Below, piece after piece: positions 57,163 to 64,000 of a DNA stretch of 64,000 nucleotides. The translations under genes and the position numbers were made by a program. The stretch comes from an uncultured Aliiroseovarius sp. (GTDB lineage: Bacteria; Pseudomonadota; Alphaproteobacteria; Rhodobacterales; Rhodobacteraceae), in assembly GCF_947497285.1 (NCBI RefSeq), contig NZ_CANMFT010000005.1, positions 1-64,000 of the forward strand, written 5' to 3'. The number at the start of each line of letters is the position of its first letter. The first letter of the stretch is position 1. The notes beneath the pieces were generated by a model that saw only the letters and a program-made list of their open reading frames with translations, was not told where the DNA came from and did not search any database.

Positions 57163-60100
57163 CTACAGGTCGATTGCGATCTCGCCGTCCGGATCTGCGG
57201 CCCGACTTTGGCACAGGATCATTTCAGTTTTGCGCTGGGCGTTTGACAGAACGAAGTCACGATGTTCGACCGCGCCCGAAAGCACACCGCATTTGCAGAC
57301 TCCACAAATCCCGTCAGAGCATTTCACATCCACATGGATACCGGCCGCGTTCAGCGCATCAGCGGCGCTTTCATCCTCAGAGACCGCCACTCTGCGCCCA
57401 TCTTTCAAGGTCAACGTAAAAGGATGGTTTTCATAGTCAGGTTGCTCGGGTGGGTTGAAATACTCCAGATGCTGCGCGGCTTCAGGAATGCCCTGCCGAG
57501 AGGCTGCGTCCATAGCTGCGGTCATGTAACGGTCTGCCCCGCAGCAATACACATGGGCGCTATCGGGTGCGCCTGACAGGATGGCATCGAAATCCGCCCG
57601 CGTGCCTTCGTCCGAGAAATGAAGATGCACCCGGTCAGCCCATGGCATAGCCGCAAGATCATCCAGAAACCCCGCATCCGCGCGACGGCTGGCCGAGTAA
57701 TGCAGCGTGAAGTCTGCACCGATGGCGTGGAGGCGGTGGGCAAAGGCGATCATGGGTGTGATGCCGATGCCGCCGCCCAACAGAAAGGTTTTGGTGGCGC
57801 TTTCGTCCAGCTCAAAGTGGTTGATCGGCTTGGCGACGAACACCTTGCGCCCTTCGGTGAAAATTCGGTGCAGCAGGGCGGACCCTCCGCGCCCGTCAGC
57901 TTCACGCAGCACACCGATCTGATAGGTCATGCGGTCCGCGGGATTTCCGGACAGGGAATACTGCCTCAGTAGATCAGGGGCGACCAGCACATCCAGATGC
58001 GCCCCGGCGGTCCATTCCGGCAGGGGCGCGCCATCAAGCGCGGTAAGCTCGTATTTGGTGATGCCTTTGACCATCGGCGCGACCCGATTGACGACAAGCT
58101 GCAACACAGGGGCTTCGTCGGCAATTGTGTAGCGGTGAATGATCGACGGATCACCGGCTGCAAGTCGTGCGCGATAGTCGTCGGCGCTGTGCAGTGCCTG
58201 ATACGCCGCAATGCCCGCCTCACGATCCATCGGAAAGGGATATGGATAGGGCGGTGGGGCCAGAGGCGCGGGATAGACCGCCAATGTTTGGTCTGCGTAT
58301 TTCAAATCCAGATCGCGGTCGAGGTCGCGGCGGTTCACCGGGTCGTCCGTTGGATGATACCCGCCGTCCTCACCTAGCTTCAGATCCCACCACCATTTCT
58401 TGGTATCGTTCAGACCACCGTTCCCAACCGCGTCGTCCAGCTTGGCCAACACTGGCGCGGCCCCCGGCAGGTTTGACGCGGCCCACCGGAACGGTGCTTG
58501 GGCAAACAGCCCCTCAAGGTTCCAAGGACATGTTTTCATGCAGCGCCCACACATCGCGCCGCCGGGTTGTGTGACGCGATAAGTGGTGCATTTCTGGCTG
58601 TCCGATTTCCAGATCTCATAGCCGTTGAACATCAGTTTCGGCCCAGCGGTGATCGCACCTGACGGACATTCCCGCGCGCATTTGTTGCAGGCTTCGCAAA
58701 ATCGCTGAAGGCCGAAGTCGATGGGTTTGTCATGCGCCATCGGCATGTCCGTCGTCACCACGCCCGACTTCAGGCGCGGGCCAAGATATGGGTTCAGGAT
58801 CACTTCGCCGATCCGGCTAACCTCGCCCAGCCCGGCCAAAAGCAGCAAGGGAGGTTGCAGAACGGTCCCGTCCATCACGGTATGCGCTTTCGCGGAATAC
58901 CCAAGGTTGCGGATCTGCTGCGCGATCACCCCACCAAGCAGCGAGAACCGCAGATAGGCGCGCATGGATTGGCTGACGGCGATCCAGTCATCGCCCGACG
59001 CGCCCTCCATCGTTTCAAACCCCTGATCGACAATCATCGAGATGGCTTGGTCGTGCAGGGGCACGATTTCGGCACCTGTGGCGTCGTGGCTATACCATGT
59101 CCAGTCCGGGCAGCGGCTGGTTCCGACCGCGTCAATGCCAAGAAAATAGCTGGCCGCTTTCAGTGCGGCGGCGTTTGCGACCGGGTCCGCAGGGCGTGGC
59201 GTGATGTGGTTGATCGGCCCATCCTGCAGGGGTGTCAGCACACCCAAGGTGCGGCGTTGCGCATAGCTGGGCGCCGCTTTTCGCACATAATGACCGCCTG
59301 CCGCGCTTTGCTGGAGCTTCTTGCCCATGTCGCCGAATTGCGCCCGCGCAAACATGTCAGCACGTTTGGGCACGCGGGCGACGTTAGGTTCGTCAATATA
59401 GGTTGTTGGTGTGTCGACGCGCTTTAAGCGTTCGAACGGGTGCGCGCCCATGGCATAGTCGCGCTTTGCAAATGGGTCGCGGTTCAGCGCGGATTTTGCC
59501 GAACCAACCCCCAGCCACCACGCTGGACCGTGGGTTTTGTGCCATGGCTGCTGGTTCATAGGCGCCAGTGGTCGGTCGTTCGCCAGCGCCAGGTCGGTCG
59601 TCACGGCGGCCAGACCAAACCGCGTGCCAAGCCAGGGCGCAATGATGGTATCATCTTCGGGCGTCGCTAGCCCTGCCGCGATGGCCAGCCGGTTCAGGTC
59701 AACATCGCGTGCGGTGCCGGTATGCGCCTTGGCATCAAAGCCAAGAAGTCGAATGTAGTTGGCGATGACTACCGCCGTTTCGGCGCCAAGCAAACAGGCG
59801 CGTTGGTCCTGTGCGTCCTTGATCCAGGTCGCGCCGGGCTCATCGGGCTTCGGGTCGCGGTGGTGCTCATACAGAAAAACGATGGCGTGGCTGTGCGTGG
59901 TGATGGGGCGGGGCGGGGCATTAAGGCTGTCGCTTAGCTCGGCCATCAGGGTGTCGATCCCTGCCGCAAGGGTGCGCACCTCGCGGGTGGCCAGCGATGC
60001 AACCAAATCCGCGATGTCGTCATTTTCAAGTGGAGTCGCAAGCCTGTCTGCGTCGGTCAGGGGTGCGATGGCGACCATAGAGGCGTCCGAGAAATACCCG

Positions 60101-60369
60101 AAAGCCTTTAGATGGCGGCTCCGTTCGCCAAGGTCATCGGGAATGGTGGCGCGGGCCGAATTGACCTCGCCATCGCGGGTGGCGTCCAGTGCGGCCTGAT
60201 AGGGGGCCATCGCATTCACGATGCTTTCGGGGTGTTCCGCACGTTCAAATGAAACGGGGTCTGCGGGTAAAAGGCGCGACATATCGGGCATCTCGGTCTG
60301 CCTGACAAGGCGTTCCAAGGGATAGGGCCCCAAATGAACGGGGCGTTTCCGGGTCGAGAAAAGCCGCAT
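57163..60369 (-). CDS. Reductive-dehalogenase-like protein fused to a flavin/2Fe-2S reductase
   Basis: 1068 residues, no Tat signal, hence cytoplasmic. Residues about 85-330 and 380-560 are two copies of a RdhA/QueG-type corrinoid-binding fold (see GFDAKAHTG vs GYSAKAHTV, and LGTRFGLAAVTTDLALANDRP vs LGPRLKSGVVTTDMPMAHDKP). Only the second copy continues into two 4Fe-4S clusters, FCEACNKCARECPSGAI (about 553-570) and CGRCMKTCPW (about 606-615). The last 330 residues form a phthalate-dioxygenase-reductase-like unit: RQYSLSGNP (flavin), GGGIGITPMIAFAHRL (pyridine nucleotide) and CSDGICGVCKCG...LCQSR (2Fe-2S). This is the layout of aerobic catabolic reductive dehalogenases such as BhbA and the Nitratireductor RdhA. 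Halogenated aromatics are a family-based guess. Confidence 0.88.
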   Translation of the reverse strand: MRLFSTRKRPVHLGPYPLERLVRQTEMPDMSRLLPADPVSFERAEHPESIVNAMAPYQAALDATRDGEVNSARATIPDDLGERSRHLKAFGYFSDASMVAIAPLTDADRLATPLENDDIADLVASLATREVRTLAAGIDTLMAELSDSLNAPPRPITTHSHAIVFLYEHHRDPKPDEPGATWIKDAQDQRACLLGAETAVVIANYIRLLGFDAKAHTGTARDVDLNRLAIAAGLATPEDDTIIAPWLGTRFGLAAVTTDLALANDRPLAPMNQQPWHKTHGPAWWLGVGSAKSALNRDPFAKRDYAMGAHPFERLKRVDTPTTYIDEPNVARVPKRADMFARAQFGDMGKKLQQSAAGGHYVRKAAPSYAQRRTLGVLTPLQDGPINHITPRPADPVANAAALKAASYFLGIDAVGTSRCPDWTWYSHDATGAEIVPLHDQAISMIVDQGFETMEGASGDDWIAVSQSMRAYLRFSLLGGVIAQQIRNLGYSAKAHTVMDGTVLQPPLLLLAGLGEVSRIGEVILNPYLGPRLKSGVVTTDMPMAHDKPIDFGLQRFCEACNKCARECPSGAITAGPKLMFNGYEIWKSDSQKCTTYRVTQPGGAMCGRCMKTCPWNLEGLFAQAPFRWAASNLPGAAPVLAKLDDAVGNGGLNDTKKWWWDLKLGEDGGYHPTDDPVNRRDLDRDLDLKYADQTLAVYPAPLAPPPYPYPFPMDREAGIAAYQALHSADDYRARLAAGDPSIIHRYTIADEAPVLQLVVNRVAPMVKGITKYELTALDGAPLPEWTAGAHLDVLVAPDLLRQYSLSGNPADRMTYQIGVLREADGRGGSALLHRIFTEGRKVFVAKPINHFELDESATKTFLLGGGIGITPMIAFAHRLHAIGADFTLHYSASRRADAGFLDDLAAMPWADRVHLHFSDEGTRADFDAILSGAPDSAHVYCCGADRYMTAAMDAASRQGIPEAAQHLEYFNPPEQPDYENHPFTLTLKDGRRVAVSEDESAADALNAAGIHVDVKCSDGICGVCKCGVLSGAVEHRDFVLSNAQRKTEMILCQSRAADPDGEIAIDL

Positions 60370-60370
60370 C

Positions 60371-60451
60371 TCAGGCCGGGTCCAAAGCCGGGATTTGCTG
60401 CGGCAACAACAAAGAGGACGCCGACCAAAAGGATGTTTGGTGAGGGATCAT
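60371..60451 (-). other. 26-codon ORF abutting the Rdh-like gene
   Basis: ATG at 60451 reads MIPHQTSFWSASSLLLPQQ and ends TGA one base before the large gene. No good ribosome binding site. Possibly chance, or a short upstream peptide coupled to the big gene. Confidence 0.15.
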
Positions 60452-60532
60452 TATGGTTTGCTCCGCATCTGGTCTAATCACGACCTGATCAGTTGAGCAT
60501 GGACTGCAGGATGGCGCCAGCCCAGATTGGAT

Positions 60533-61159
60533 TCAGTAACCGTATCTGGCGCGAAAGCGGTCTGCCTCGTTCTTGGTTGGCGCTTGCCCGGTGAACAGCT
60601 CGACATAGGCGGGGATACGACCGATCCGGCTGGCGGGATCCTCCTCGATCTCCATCGCGATGTATCCGGCCTGAGTATACAGGATCGCCATGGTGCGTAT
60701 GTCGGCGTCATCCTTGGTATATCCGAACCGCTGGAACATCGCGGCGATCGCGGATTTTCGGCGATGATCTGCATGATCCAGCCGCTGTTTTAGATCGGGA
60801 TCCGTTCGGGCCCAGTTGCGGATTGCGTTGTCCAAAGGCGCATCAAAAAGGCTGCGGTCCACCCAGCAATCTTGCAAGTTGAACATCGCCTCGCAAATCG
60901 TCTCAGCATACGCCTCGCACCGGGCGATCAAGTTTCCGGTATTCTTATCTTCCCACCGCGCGATCATTGCGTCCAGCAAGGCCTCTCGATCGCGAAAATG
61001 GTGATAGAATCCGGTGCGGGTCAGGCCCAGCTTTTTCGCCAACGGCATGACTTTTACGGCGTCCACACCGGCTTCGACCAATAGGTCCAATGCTGCATCC
61101 AGCCACATCTGGTCCGAGGCGCGCGGGCGGGTGGGGGCCATCTTGTTCATGCTGGCCAT
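60533..61159 (-). CDS. TetR-family transcriptional regulator
   Basis: 208 residues. HTH: MWLDAALDLLVEAGVDAVKVMPLAKKLGLTRTGFYHHFRDREALLDAMI (about 18-66) is typical TetR. Ligand-binding C-terminal domain with DQ-less aromatic residues. Start at 61159 or 61150 (MNKM). It lies upstream of the Rdh-like gene on the same strand and divergent from mttB; two operator-like palindromes are in the gap, so it probably represses both arms and itself. A much longer minus-strand ORF continuing past the start to 62026 is a shadow of mttB. Confidence 0.9.
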   Translation of the reverse strand: MASMNKMAPTRPRASDQMWLDAALDLLVEAGVDAVKVMPLAKKLGLTRTGFYHHFRDREALLDAMIARWEDKNTGNLIARCEAYAETICEAMFNLQDCWVDRSLFDAPLDNAIRNWARTDPDLKQRLDHADHRRKSAIAAMFQRFGYTKDDADIRTMAILYTQAGYIAMEIEEDPASRIGRIPAYVELFTGQAPTKNEADRFRARYGY

Positions 61160-61170
61160 ATTAGAAAACT

Positions 61171-61205
61171 TGACACAAGTGTCAAACGTGATGACAGATA
61201 TGTCA
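61171..61205. promoter_or_regulatory. Two TetR-type operators TGACA-N4-TGTCA
   Basis: TGACACAAGTGTCA (61171-61184) and TGACAGATATGTCA (61192-61205): identical 5-bp half-sites, 4-bp spacers, repeat distance 21 bp, i.e. two helical turns. Located between the TetR start (61159) and mttB start (61235). Confidence 0.75.
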
Positions 61206-61234
61206 GAAGAGTGACTCGCAAATGGGAGATTGCG

Positions 61235-62788
61235 ATGAACCAAACGATACAGCGACGGCGTCGCAGCCCCCGTGAACCGCGTGATGGTCAGCCGGGCCAA
61301 AACCCGCATCTGGAACGCCCGTTCATTAAGCGGGGCATCCCCACCTACGACATTCTGGGCGATGATGCGCTTGCGCAGATCGAGGCAACCGCCGACCGGA
61401 TCCTGGCCGAGATCGGAATCGAGTTTCGCGACGACCCGGAAACGGTCGAGATGTTTCGCAAAGCAGGCGGGCAGGTCACCGAATTGGACCCGACACGGTG
61501 GAACATCAAATTCGCCCCCGGCATGATCCGCGAGATATTGAAAACAGCGCCGGCCGAATTCACCCAGCACGCGCGCAACCCAGCCAACAATGTGCAAATC
61601 GGCGGTGACAACGTGGTGTTCGCCCCGTCCTATGGCAGCCCCTTCGTGATGGATCTGGACCGGGGGCGGCGATACGGCACGCTTGAGGACTTCCAGAACT
61701 TCGTGAAGTTGGGCCAAATGAGCCCTTGGCTGCACCATTCTGGCGGCACAGTGTGCGAGCCGACCGACATCCCGGTGAACAAGCGCCATCTGGATATGGT
61801 CTATTCCCACATGCGGTATTCCGACCGGCCCTTCCTTGGGTCGATCACCGCGTCTGAACGTGCCGCTGATAGCGTCGAGATGTGCCGCATCCTGTTTGGG
61901 GCAGATTTCGTGGACCAGAACTGCGTGATCATGGGCAATTTCAACACGACCAGCCCTCTGGTGATCGACGGTGTGACCTCGCAAGGTATTCGCGAATATG
62001 CGAAGGCGGGGCAGGGGTCGATTCACTTGCCTTTCCTGCTTGGTGGCGCGGTGTCACCCCTAACCATGGCGGGATCGGCGGCGCAGTGTTTGGCCGAAAG
62101 CATGGTGTCTTGCGCAATCGCCCAGCTTGAACGCCCCGGCGCGCCAGTGGTCTTGGCAAGTTTCCTAAGCTCCATGTCATTGCGATCCGGCTCGCCCACA
62201 TTTGGCACGTCCGAGGCAGCGGTGGGCAGTCTGGTCTTTGGCCAACTTGCGCGCCGTCTGAACCTGCCCCTACGCTGTGCAGGCAACTTCTCGACCTCGA
62301 AACTGCCGGATGCGCAGGCGATGCAGCAAGCCATGATGTCGATGATGTCGGCCATCCATTGCGGCGCGAATTACCTGCTGCATTCAGCAGGGTTCCTCGA
62401 TGGGCTTCTGTCGATGTCTTACGAGAAATTCATGCTCGACCTCGATCTGTGCGGCGCGCTTCATTCCTATCTGGACGGGGTGGCGGTGAACGAGGATACT
62501 TTGGGCTTCGACGCGCTGGCCGAAAAGGGGCCGGGCGAGCATCTGTTCTCAACCGCCCACACGATGCGCCACTACAAAACCGCCTATTACGACAGTGCCT
62601 TGGACGACCATCAACCATGGGAAACGTGGGATGAGCAGGGCGAGGTTGATATGGCCGCTCGTGCCAATTTGCGCTGGAAGGCCCAACTGGCGGCCTATGA
62701 GGCGCCGCCCATCGACGCCGCCGTTGACGATGCCCTGAAAGAATTCATAGCCCGCAAAAAAGCGTCCATGGACGATGCTTGGTATTGA
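61235..62788 (+). CDS. MttB-superfamily (trimethylamine methyltransferase-like) protein
   Basis: 517 residues. Start MNQTIQRRRRSPREP at 61235 with GGGAG upstream; the 8-residue extension from 61211 is unlikely. TIM-barrel methyltransferase of the MttB family: PFIKRGIPTYDILGDDALAQIEATADRILAEIGIEF and the central PFLLGGAVSPLTMAGSAAQCLAESMV block. There is no internal amber codon, so it is a non-pyrrolysine member, a group that includes MtgB (glycine betaine) and related quaternary-amine enzymes that methylate a corrinoid protein. No MttC-like corrinoid protein is in the window. A quaternary amine or betaine substrate is inferred. Confidence 0.9.
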   Translation: MNQTIQRRRRSPREPRDGQPGQNPHLERPFIKRGIPTYDILGDDALAQIEATADRILAEIGIEFRDDPETVEMFRKAGGQVTELDPTRWNIKFAPGMIREILKTAPAEFTQHARNPANNVQIGGDNVVFAPSYGSPFVMDLDRGRRYGTLEDFQNFVKLGQMSPWLHHSGGTVCEPTDIPVNKRHLDMVYSHMRYSDRPFLGSITASERAADSVEMCRILFGADFVDQNCVIMGNFNTTSPLVIDGVTSQGIREYAKAGQGSIHLPFLLGGAVSPLTMAGSAAQCLAESMVSCAIAQLERPGAPVVLASFLSSMSLRSGSPTFGTSEAAVGSLVFGQLARRLNLPLRCAGNFSTSKLPDAQAMQQAMMSMMSAIHCGANYLLHSAGFLDGLLSMSYEKFMLDLDLCGALHSYLDGVAVNEDTLGFDALAEKGPGEHLFSTAHTMRHYKTAYYDSALDDHQPWETWDEQGEVDMAARANLRWKAQLAAYEAPPIDAAVDDALKEFIARKKASMDDAWY

Positions 62789-62812
62789 TGCTTGGTTTTA
62801 AGGAAGACGACC

Positions 62813-64000
62813 ATGTCCACTGATCCCCTTTTGCAGCCCTATCAACTGGGACACCTGACCCTTCGCAACCGGATCATGACCACCAGCCATGAACCGGCCT
62901 ATCCCGAAGATGGAATGCCCAAGGAGCGCTATGCGGCTTATCACGCAGAACGGGCCAAGGCTGGCGTCGCGATGGCGATGACGGCAGGGTCGGCCGCGGT
63001 GTCGAAGGACAGCCCACCCGTGTTCAACAACATCCTCGCCTATAAGGATGAGGTCGTTCCGTGGATCAGAAATCTTACCGATGCTGTCCATGAACATGGC
63101 GCGGCCTGCATGATCCAGCTGACCCATCTTGGGCGGCGCACGGGTTGGAACAAAGGCGACTGGTTGCCGCCGGTCTGTTCTACGCCACACCGTGAACCGG
63201 CCCACCGCGCTTTTCCAAAATTGGCAGAGGACTGGGATATCACCCGTATCATTTCCGATTTTGCCGACGCGGCTGAGCGGATGAAAGAGGGTGGCATGGA
63301 TGGGGTCGAGATTATGACCCATGGGCATCTGCTGGATCAGTTCATTTCGCCCCTGACCAATCGTCTCGATGGACCCTACGGCGGTGATCTGACAGGGCGG
63401 ATGCGACTGACGATGGACATCATTGATGCCGTGCGTGGACGCGTCGGCAATGAATTTATCCTCGGCGTGCGTTTTGCCCCGGACGAAGCTCAGGACGGTG
63501 GCATTGACCCGGAAATGGGCATGGAGATTGCCAAGATGCTGCGCGATAGCGGGCAGGTGGATTATCTGAACATCAACCGCGGGCGCATTCATACGGACCC
63601 GGCGATGACAGATATGATCCCCATTCAGGGCGCGCCCTCGTCGCCGCACCTGGATTTTGCCGGGCGGGTGCGTGCCGAAATCGGCATGCCCACTTTTCAC
63701 GCCGCCCGTATCCCTGACGTGGCAACGGCGCGTCATGCAATTTCCTCGGGCCAACTCGACATGGTGGGCATGACGCGCGCGCACATGGCTGACCCCCATA
63801 TCGTGCAGAAGATCATCGAAGGGCGCGAGGATGACATTCGCCCCTGTGTCGGCGCGACCTACTGTCTGGACCGTATCTATCAGGCGGGCGATGCGTTGTG
63901 CATCCACAATGCCGCCACCGGGCGCGAATTGACGATGCCGCATGTGGTCGAAGCGGCCCCCGAGAACCGTAGAGTCGTGATCGTCGGCGCTGGGCCTGCC
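62813..64000 (+). CDS. NADH:flavin oxidoreductase, TMADH/StcD-like (3' end outside window)
   Basis: Open from ATG 62813 (AAGGAAGACG upstream) to the window end, 396 codons, so the C-terminal part is missing. Old-yellow-enzyme barrel: PYQLGHLTLRNRIMTTSHEP, MIQLTHLGRR, GVEIMTHGHLLDQFISPLTNRLDGPYGGD (catalytic His region), then a 4Fe-4S-type region CVGATYCLDRIYQAGDALCIHN and the start of an FAD/NAD domain RRVVIVGAGPA. Only three of the four usual cluster Cys are present (Ala where trimethylamine dehydrogenase has its second). Such proteins demethylate secondary or tertiary amines, for example N-methylproline in stachydrine catabolism. Follows mttB by 24 bp in one operon. Confidence 0.92.
   Translation, partial: MSTDPLLQPYQLGHLTLRNRIMTTSHEPAYPEDGMPKERYAAYHAERAKAGVAMAMTAGSAAVSKDSPPVFNNILAYKDEVVPWIRNLTDAVHEHGAACMIQLTHLGRRTGWNKGDWLPPVCSTPHREPAHRAFPKLAEDWDITRIISDFADAAERMKEGGMDGVEIMTHGHLLDQFISPLTNRLDGPYGGDLTGRMRLTMDIIDAVRGRVGNEFILGVRFAPDEAQDGGIDPEMGMEIAKMLRDSGQVDYLNINRGRIHTDPAMTDMIPIQGAPSSPHLDFAGRVRAEIGMPTFHAARIPDVATARHAISSGQLDMVGMTRAHMADPHIVQKIIEGREDDIRPCVGATYCLDRIYQAGDALCIHNAATGRELTMPHVVEAAPENRRVVIVGAGPA

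Follow-up and report, generated by a model that had tools for sequence, protein, structure and literature searches.

Probably two catabolic units side by side: a self-sufficient reductive dehalogenase and a TetR-MttB-flavoprotein cassette in Aliiroseovarius

The stretch of DNA analysed here, referred to as the window, comprises bases 1-64000 of contig C5 in the genome (3.37 Mb, 21 contigs) of an uncultured Aliiroseovarius sp. Its last part carries four open frames with matching domains (table 1): rdh, for a reductive dehalogenase (RdhA) fused to a reductase; tetR, for a TetR-family regulator; mttB, for a corrinoid methyltransferase of the MttB superfamily; and a gene for a flavoprotein of the old yellow enzyme (OYE) type. 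This is the gene set and layout that an earlier note, made from the sequence of the window, had described. The same note offered two options for the fusion: a catabolic dehalogenase that lies beside a betaine locus by chance, or an enzyme recruited to reduce the corrinoid used with MttB or to demethylate directly. Homology, active-site residues, gene contexts, an operator motif and co-occurrence among genomes were computed for the locus and its relatives.

Table 1. Positions of the genes and sites at the locus, and of the sulfatase gene found upstream of rdh in relatives
Feature	Position	Strand	Remarks
RdhA-reductase fusion (rdh)	57163-60369	-	open frame; corrinoid/2x[4Fe-4S] RdhA part, then FMN/2Fe-2S phthalate-dioxygenase-reductase part
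tetR-rdh gap	60370-60532	.	looks like the junction left after loss of an arylsulfatase gene; relatives keep the sulfatase here
Degenerate copy of the near-palindrome ATATTGRATCCAATAT	60524-60539	-	3 mismatches
TetR-family regulator of the mttB operon	60533-61159	-	PF00440 (TetR_N); start at 61159 picked by eye
Promoter-like site for tetR (possibly tetR-rdh)	61158-61185	-	overlaps operator 1; consensus match only
Putative TetR operator 1, TGACACAAGTGTCA	61171-61184	.	
Putative TetR operator 2, TGACAGATATGTCA	61192-61205	.	
MttB-superfamily (non-pyrrolysine) corrinoid methyltransferase	61235 (ATG) or 61211 (GTG) to 62788	+	PF06253; open frame
OYE/StcD-like flavoprotein	62813-64855	+	runs past the window end (64000) on the same contig; Oxidored_FMN and Pyr_redox_2
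SpAS2-like arylsulfatase upstream of rdh in relatives	L077:11324-12991		also G404 (partial), G408, G394, G399, G406, G407, G412, G396

The fusion matches the reductive dehalogenase model TIGR02486 at 196.5 bits, above the cut-off, and also holds Fer4-type and Fer2 domains, which agrees with the description of a dehalogenase-like protein with its own reductase. The closest solved structure is that of NpRdhA from Nitratireductor pacificus (4ras, 6zxu), which matches residues 1-739 of the fusion (4ras, E 8.9e-162); the two N-termini, read by eye, align from residue 1. The C-terminal residues 755-1067 resemble phthalate dioxygenase reductase (PDOR; 2pia, E 9.8e-51), a domain that is not fused to NpRdhA according to excerpts of PMC10463259. 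Over its full length the fusion aligns at 51% identity with WP_015585978, encoded on plasmid pBHB of Comamonas sp. 7D-2, which is BhbA in the list of PMC10463259, a source represented here by excerpts. In an alignment of 13 sequences (the fusion, BhbA and 11 others), residues F340, S468, M469, Y472, K534 and R598, which correspond to F291, S422, M423, Y426, K488 and R552 of NpRdhA, are invariant, and with them the catalytic Tyr-Lys pair (Y472 and K534) and the substrate Arg (R598). Also invariant are the cysteines of two [4Fe-4S] motifs (C558, C561, C564, C568 and C594, C607, C610, C614) and those of the plant-type 2Fe-2S cluster (C1017, C1022, C1025 and C1053). BhbA differs from the fusion in its setting, a conjugative plasmid with adjoining genes for protocatechuate dioxygenase and a porin, none of which is present at the window locus.

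Two further enzymes are relevant to the function. Excerpts of PMC10463259 describe JtRdhA of Jhaorihella thermophila as a self-sufficient RdhA that removes bromine and iodine from phenols in an NADPH-dependent manner, with or without air; it shares with the fusion a duplicated cobalamin domain, two [4Fe-4S] clusters, a PDOR domain and the key residues Y426, K488 and R552 (NpRdhA numbering). JtRdhA has no twin-arginine translocation (TAT) signal, and the fusion may be cytoplasmic as well. Ros_A3X954, a debrominase of a Roseobacter strain that acts on a bromophenol, is a marine roseobacter enzyme without TAT signal, but it is shorter, with the dehalogenase domain at residues 174-269 and the cluster motifs by residue 345, and no fused reductase is described in excerpts of PMC13101508. 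Judged by homology, the fusion is a further example of an already known kind of enzyme, a self-sufficient catabolic RdhA that most likely strips bromine or iodine from phenols. A hydride from NADPH would be passed to the FMN of the fusion, and electrons would reach the bound cobalamin through the 2Fe-2S cluster and the two 4Fe-4S clusters; an ortho-bromo- or iodophenol would then lose its halide, with a proton supplied by the Tyr-Lys pair. In Comamonas 7D-2 (L101) and Nitratireductor OM-1 (L104), genes for the cleavage of aromatic rings lie beside the fusion gene, a setting that suits a role in halophenol catabolism.

Among 394 genomes drawn from the family, 164 have an rdh match (E <=1e-60), of which 149 are strong and 15 are weak or partial. 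Named matches number at least 524, and the best 80 of them include Aliiroseovarius, Ruegeria, Shimia, Thalassovita and Tritonibacter; the presence among these 80 of some Hyphomicrobiales (such as Oricola and Aquibium, 69% identity) suggests lateral transfer of rdh. Outside the genus, 128 rdh loci were compared, 59 (of 60 relatives' loci of about 12-20 kb) and 74 (of 80 named ones), with five in both sets; some of them, including several of the named ones, have short flanks. The TetR-MttB-OYE cassette is found in none of the 59 relatives' loci, and in the 74 named non-Aliiroseovarius loci none of tetR, mttB and OYE was detected at E 1e-15 over half of the length, which gives 0/128 for the whole set. 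Regarding the mttB loci elsewhere, 40 were fetched and one (L203) was dropped, as it had been picked for an mttB paralogue beside rdh and is the same place as L049; rdh is present in none of the remaining 39. Co-occurrence was tested on the 73 genomes with a close mttB (>=62% identity), out of 103 with mttB. Both genes are found together in 23 of the 394 genomes, compared with 30.4 expected (p 0.065), while 141 of the 164 rdh genomes have no close mttB and 50 of the 73 mttB genomes have no rdh. A shared rdh-mttB pathway was rejected on the basis of the linkage outside the genus and of these counts.

The same numbers bear on the recruitment option, in which the fusion would be a RamA-like activator that reduces, at the expense of NADPH, the corrinoid of the protein working with MttB, or would demethylate a betaine directly. 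Such a role would suit a protein that combines a corrinoid, two [4Fe-4S] clusters and a reductase part, and rdh does adjoin the cassette in 13 of 21 Aliiroseovarius genomes. We nevertheless regard it as very improbable, given the absence of linkage and of co-occurrence, the invariant halophenol active-site residues, and the fact that the RACo C-terminal domain PF14574 was not found in the fusion by a domain search at E 0.001. The window genome has one RACo-type protein, which carries PF14574 and is encoded elsewhere, and a single B12-binding_2 protein, an MtgC-like corrinoid protein on contig C2, whose gene has those for DUF1638 and homocysteine methyltransferase proteins in its vicinity, away from the window locus. 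With a corrinoid protein and a candidate activator encoded elsewhere, a RamA-like role of the fusion is not needed.

Within Aliiroseovarius, rdh matches were found in 20 of the 21 genomes (fragmented in the case of G401 and partial in that of G410), and mttB in 19. The two genes are within a few kb of each other in the 13 genomes mentioned (12 read as DNA, G401 by coordinates) and on separate contigs in four (G373, G394, G404 and G408); G399 and G409 have no mttB, G400 has no rdh, and G410 is too fragmented to judge. The neighbourhood comparison in Rhodobacterales that the earlier note had proposed gave no cassette beside rdh outside the genus and linkage in 13 of 21 genomes inside it. The synteny within the genus is truly conserved, and it counts for the shared-pathway reading of that note. 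Of the 18 readable loci, however, 12 have the cassette, 17 retain two genes that flank rdh on the side away from it, judged by eye to encode a histidine kinase and a flavin oxidoreductase (the contig of the 18th ends there), and 15 retain a small-protein gene past the cassette, so that the linkage between rdh and the cassette is no stronger than that of ordinary neighbours. Compared with G406, whose mttB is the most similar, the window has dS values of 0.31 for mttB, 0.18 for OYE, 1.17 for tetR and 1.20 for rdh; the two halves of the locus thus differ in recombination history. Two other ideas were discarded: that the adjacency was unique to the window genome, an idea prompted by a first sister genome without the cassette and contradicted by the named relatives and the 13 genomes of the genus, and that cassette-free genomes keep a scar of tetR, the likeness being limited to the last codons. 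In G401 (C168:61-3304), the rdh match is split (residues 1-233 and 241-1067), and the gene may be broken or misassembled.

Since linkage is 0/128 and 0/39, the two genes do not co-occur, each is found alone and the dS values differ, we consider it probable that two independent catabolic units lie side by side, a halophenol RdhA and a cassette for a methylated amine. It is the first option of the earlier note, a catabolic dehalogenase beside a betaine locus by chance, that residues, linkage and co-occurrence favour. The tempting reading of the gene neighbourhood has in this way been put to the test, and by its outcome the fusion seems to be a debrominase of a common marine type and not a corrinoid activator. 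Several observations weigh against this interpretation. Apart from the 13 genomes of the genus, L049 (genome G200) has, about 190 nt from rdh and convergent with it, a gene for an MttB paralogue with 54% identity, the rdh locus L073 holds an MttB paralogue of 33% and a TetR of 40% identity, and on a plasmid of Jannaschia sp. M317 (L103) genes for choline dehydrogenase, homocysteine methyltransferase and a betaine transporter are found near rdh. The co-occurrence counts ignore phylogeny. The likeness of JtRdhA to the fusion, which here has TetR-mttB as neighbours, is drawn from the published description, and the substrates of the fusion are putative.

Regarding the cassette, MttB matches PF06253 at 707 bits (cut-off 25), and its nearest solved structures are 4yyc, 2qne and 9yce (glycine betaine methyltransferase). 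The flavoprotein holds an OYE barrel (PF00724) and PF07992, and this combination of an OYE barrel with a pyridine-nucleotide-disulphide domain, common to many other flavoproteins, is what we take to be the build of StcD. As for StcD N-methylproline demethylase itself, no NCBIfam model scored above its cut-off for this protein. The "StcD-like demethylase" of the earlier note is correct as to domain build, whereas the label names a function on a sequence basis. Among the 39 other mttB loci, 25 have a co-oriented OYE gene no more than 300 nt from mttB, 27 have a divergent TetR (>=50% identity) beside mttB, and several have a second OYE; in the window genome, the cassette has matches at the rdh locus only. 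TetR, MttB and OYE are shown to make up a separate unit, which would serve a methylated and perhaps proline-type amine. A trans-3-hydroxy-L-proline dehydratase above its curated cut-off is encoded inside the cassettes of L165 (sister genome G373) and L167, and a pyrroline-carboxylate reductase-like gene is present in L167 (below the model cut-off) and in seven other mttB loci. These genes point, on thin grounds, to proline-type betaines as the substrate class; that the dehydratase occurs in only two of the 39 loci speaks against the link. The trans-3-hydroxy-L-proline dehydratase of the window genome is on another contig. In G373 (L165:10972-17166), the cassette adjoins a block of genes that resemble those of the beta-hydroxyaspartate cycle, and the same block is found in the window genome at C1:260977-267173.

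The earlier note had suggested a look downstream of position 64000 for an MttC-like protein, a methyl acceptor or a transporter. By eye, the 15 kb past 64855 showed no MttC-like protein, no methyl acceptor, no obvious transporter and no other genes of C1 or corrinoid metabolism, and the next three genes after the flavoprotein are on the opposite strand. A cognate corrinoid protein was not found in the mttB operon, the sole B12-binding_2 protein genome-wide being the one on contig C2. Excerpts of PMC12478193 give separate locus tags for the mtgC and mtgB homologues of Ruegeria, so that MttB function is compatible with a corrinoid protein encoded outside the operon. The MtgB/C/D glycine betaine system of Ruegeria pomeroyi, as described there, has an MttB-superfamily enzyme like that of the cassette, and its MtgC part is resembled by the MtgC-like, DUF1638 and homocysteine methyltransferase set of the window genome together with RACo. 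The cassette differs in the partners of MttB, which are a flavoprotein of the OYE type and a TetR, joined in two relatives by the dehydratase; an MttB-StcD pair was not found among the papers listed or in excerpts of PMC4113996. The cassette would demethylate a quaternary amine, perhaps a proline-type betaine, with MttB handing the methyl group to the one MtgC-like corrinoid protein of the cell and the flavoprotein taking off a further N-methyl group.

A better partner of rdh than the mttB cassette is an arylsulfatase. In nine of the 18 readable loci of the genus (one partial, in G404), a sulfatase gene is found upstream of rdh on the same strand, and in the eight complete cases the match stops 3-24 nt ahead of rdh. 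The closest structure to this enzyme is 4upl (787 bits), that of SpAS2 from Silicibacter pomeroyi, an efficient arylsulfatase with a kcat/KM of 2.1e5 for p-nitrophenyl sulfate according to excerpts of PMC12421950. The rdh-linked enzyme of the relatives is likened to SpAS2 by sequence, and a gene of this type is absent from the window locus. The order OYE-MttB<>TetR-sulfatase-rdh is seen in four of the 18 loci, including that of G406. The 163-nt gap between tetR and rdh in the window aligns at first to the tetR-sulfatase junction of G406, G412 and G407, after which the match continues immediately ahead of the rdh start. A deletion of the sulfatase would leave this pattern, and the gene seems to have been lost from this locus in the window genome. 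A homologue with 69% identity is encoded on contig C2 of that genome.

In the family as a whole, the sulfatase is present in 175 of the 394 genomes (E <=1e-180), namely in 116 of the 164 with rdh, where 72.8 would be expected, and in 59 of the other 230 (odds ratio 7, p 4.7e-19, phylogeny ignored). Choline sulfatase served as a control in 80 genomes outside the genus, namely, in handle order, the first 40 that have a strong rdh match and the first 40 that lack rdh, and showed no association (31/40 compared with 27/40, p 0.45); in the same genomes the SpAS2-like gene was found in 28/40 and 6/40, respectively (p 1e-6). The sulfatase is not associated with mttB (31 genomes seen, 32.4 expected, among the 394). 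Outside the genus, at least six of the 88 genomes with both positions listed have rdh and sulfatase within 10 kb of each other (G064, at 204 nt, G137, G379, G251, G176 and G057), compared with about 0.5 expected from even placement; the count was made by eye among the matches listed, which tells against it. Extracts of the red alga Vertebrata lanosa contain lanosol-4,7-disulfate as one of their main metabolites (excerpts of PMC9322897). We infer that in the genus the upstream SpAS2-like arylsulfatase desulfates algal sulfated bromophenols, which RdhA would then debrominate. Among the open-access PMC papers listed, none was found on this locus or on the pairing of a sulfatase with RdhA. The association is a more useful lead than the adjacency of rdh and mttB, as RdhA together with an SpAS2-like arylsulfatase could explain how aerobic marine bacteria deal with the sulfated bromophenols of red algae.

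With regard to regulation, the motif TGACANNNNTGTCA occurs twice in the 64 kb of the window, at operators 1 and 2 of table 1, where 0.06 occurrences are expected. Of 39 divergent tetR-mttB gaps, 24 hold the strict motif, made up of all 12 that belong to rdh-linked Aliiroseovarius cassettes and 12 of the 27 others. The 300-nt regions upstream of rdh (0/18) and of the sulfatase (0/9) in the genus loci do not contain it. The paired operators of the earlier note are therefore real, but they mark the tetR-mttB gap, where TetR would bind both, and no operator is found beside rdh. A single promoter-like site, directed leftward to tetR, is present in 60300-61300 (10/12 consensus matches, 0.3 expected). 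By consensus matching, no terminator-like site was found between tetR and rdh, which are on the same strand, so that read-through from tetR and hence co-transcription of the two genes is possible, a point that tells against independence of the units.

A second set of sites leads in another direction. The near-palindrome ATATTGRATCCAATAT, with 0-3 mismatches, precedes the sulfatase-rdh unit, or rdh alone, in all 18 loci of the genus (12 with the cassette, six without), the same loci from which its consensus was derived; the window copy has three mismatches. A scan of 143 further loci gave eight hits, six of which are named Aliiroseovarius again, and none in one shuffle each. It is possibly the operator of a further regulator, and the presence of a near-palindrome of its own argues for separate control of the sulfatase-rdh unit, even though the window copy is degenerate. 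These data bear on the proposal that in the genus one TetR controls both the mttB operon and RdhA (together with the sulfatase or without it), for separate substrates from a common algal source. Under it, rdh would be read from the tetR promoter, whose only promoter-like site overlaps operator 1, the cassette being upstream of rdh in 12 of 18 loci with no terminator-like site between. We hold this to be possible but rather unlikely: the near-palindrome is present with or without tetR, the TetR operator is missing ahead of rdh and of the sulfatase, and the evidence on promoter and terminator consists of matches to a consensus. One locus of another genus (L083) has a copy of ATATTGRATCCAATAT with two mismatches about 104 nt upstream of rdh.

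The loss of the sulfatase raises the alternative that the fusion has since become useless and is drifting. The missing gene and the degenerate near-palindrome upstream are in line with it, but dN is 0.113 for rdh between the window and G406, a dN/dS ratio (nonsynonymous to synonymous substitutions) of about 0.09 that fits purifying selection, all catalytic and cluster residues are kept, and the sulfatase homologue persists on contig C2; drift is accordingly a remote prospect. Hardly more plausible is that the OYE-MttB<>TetR-sulfatase-RdhA order, seen in the four loci, represents a joint pathway, under the control of one TetR, for one class of algal substrates that bear an onium methyl group as well as aryl-bound sulfate and bromine, with one enzyme for the removal of each type of group. 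Brominated tyrosine betaines are an example of such a class. Another is 4-sulfo-7-dimethylsulfonium lanosol, reported from a red alga in excerpts of PMC9322897. The interpretation as two independent units is the one that we retain.

Finally, in the wider surroundings of rdh, the best-shared neighbour family is found in 6/61 loci. In a larger set of 140 distinct loci, rich in Ruegeria, the top clusters are present in 28 and show a strong lineage bias, for which reason no function was drawn from them. Genes of the 5-oxoprolinase type (LamB/YcsF-like and partners, named by eye) are found near rdh in at most 6/61 and in 10-11/140 loci, for instance in L048, L049 and L050. In one mttB locus without rdh (L166:11809-13431), a sulfatase of the same type adjoins the TetR gene.

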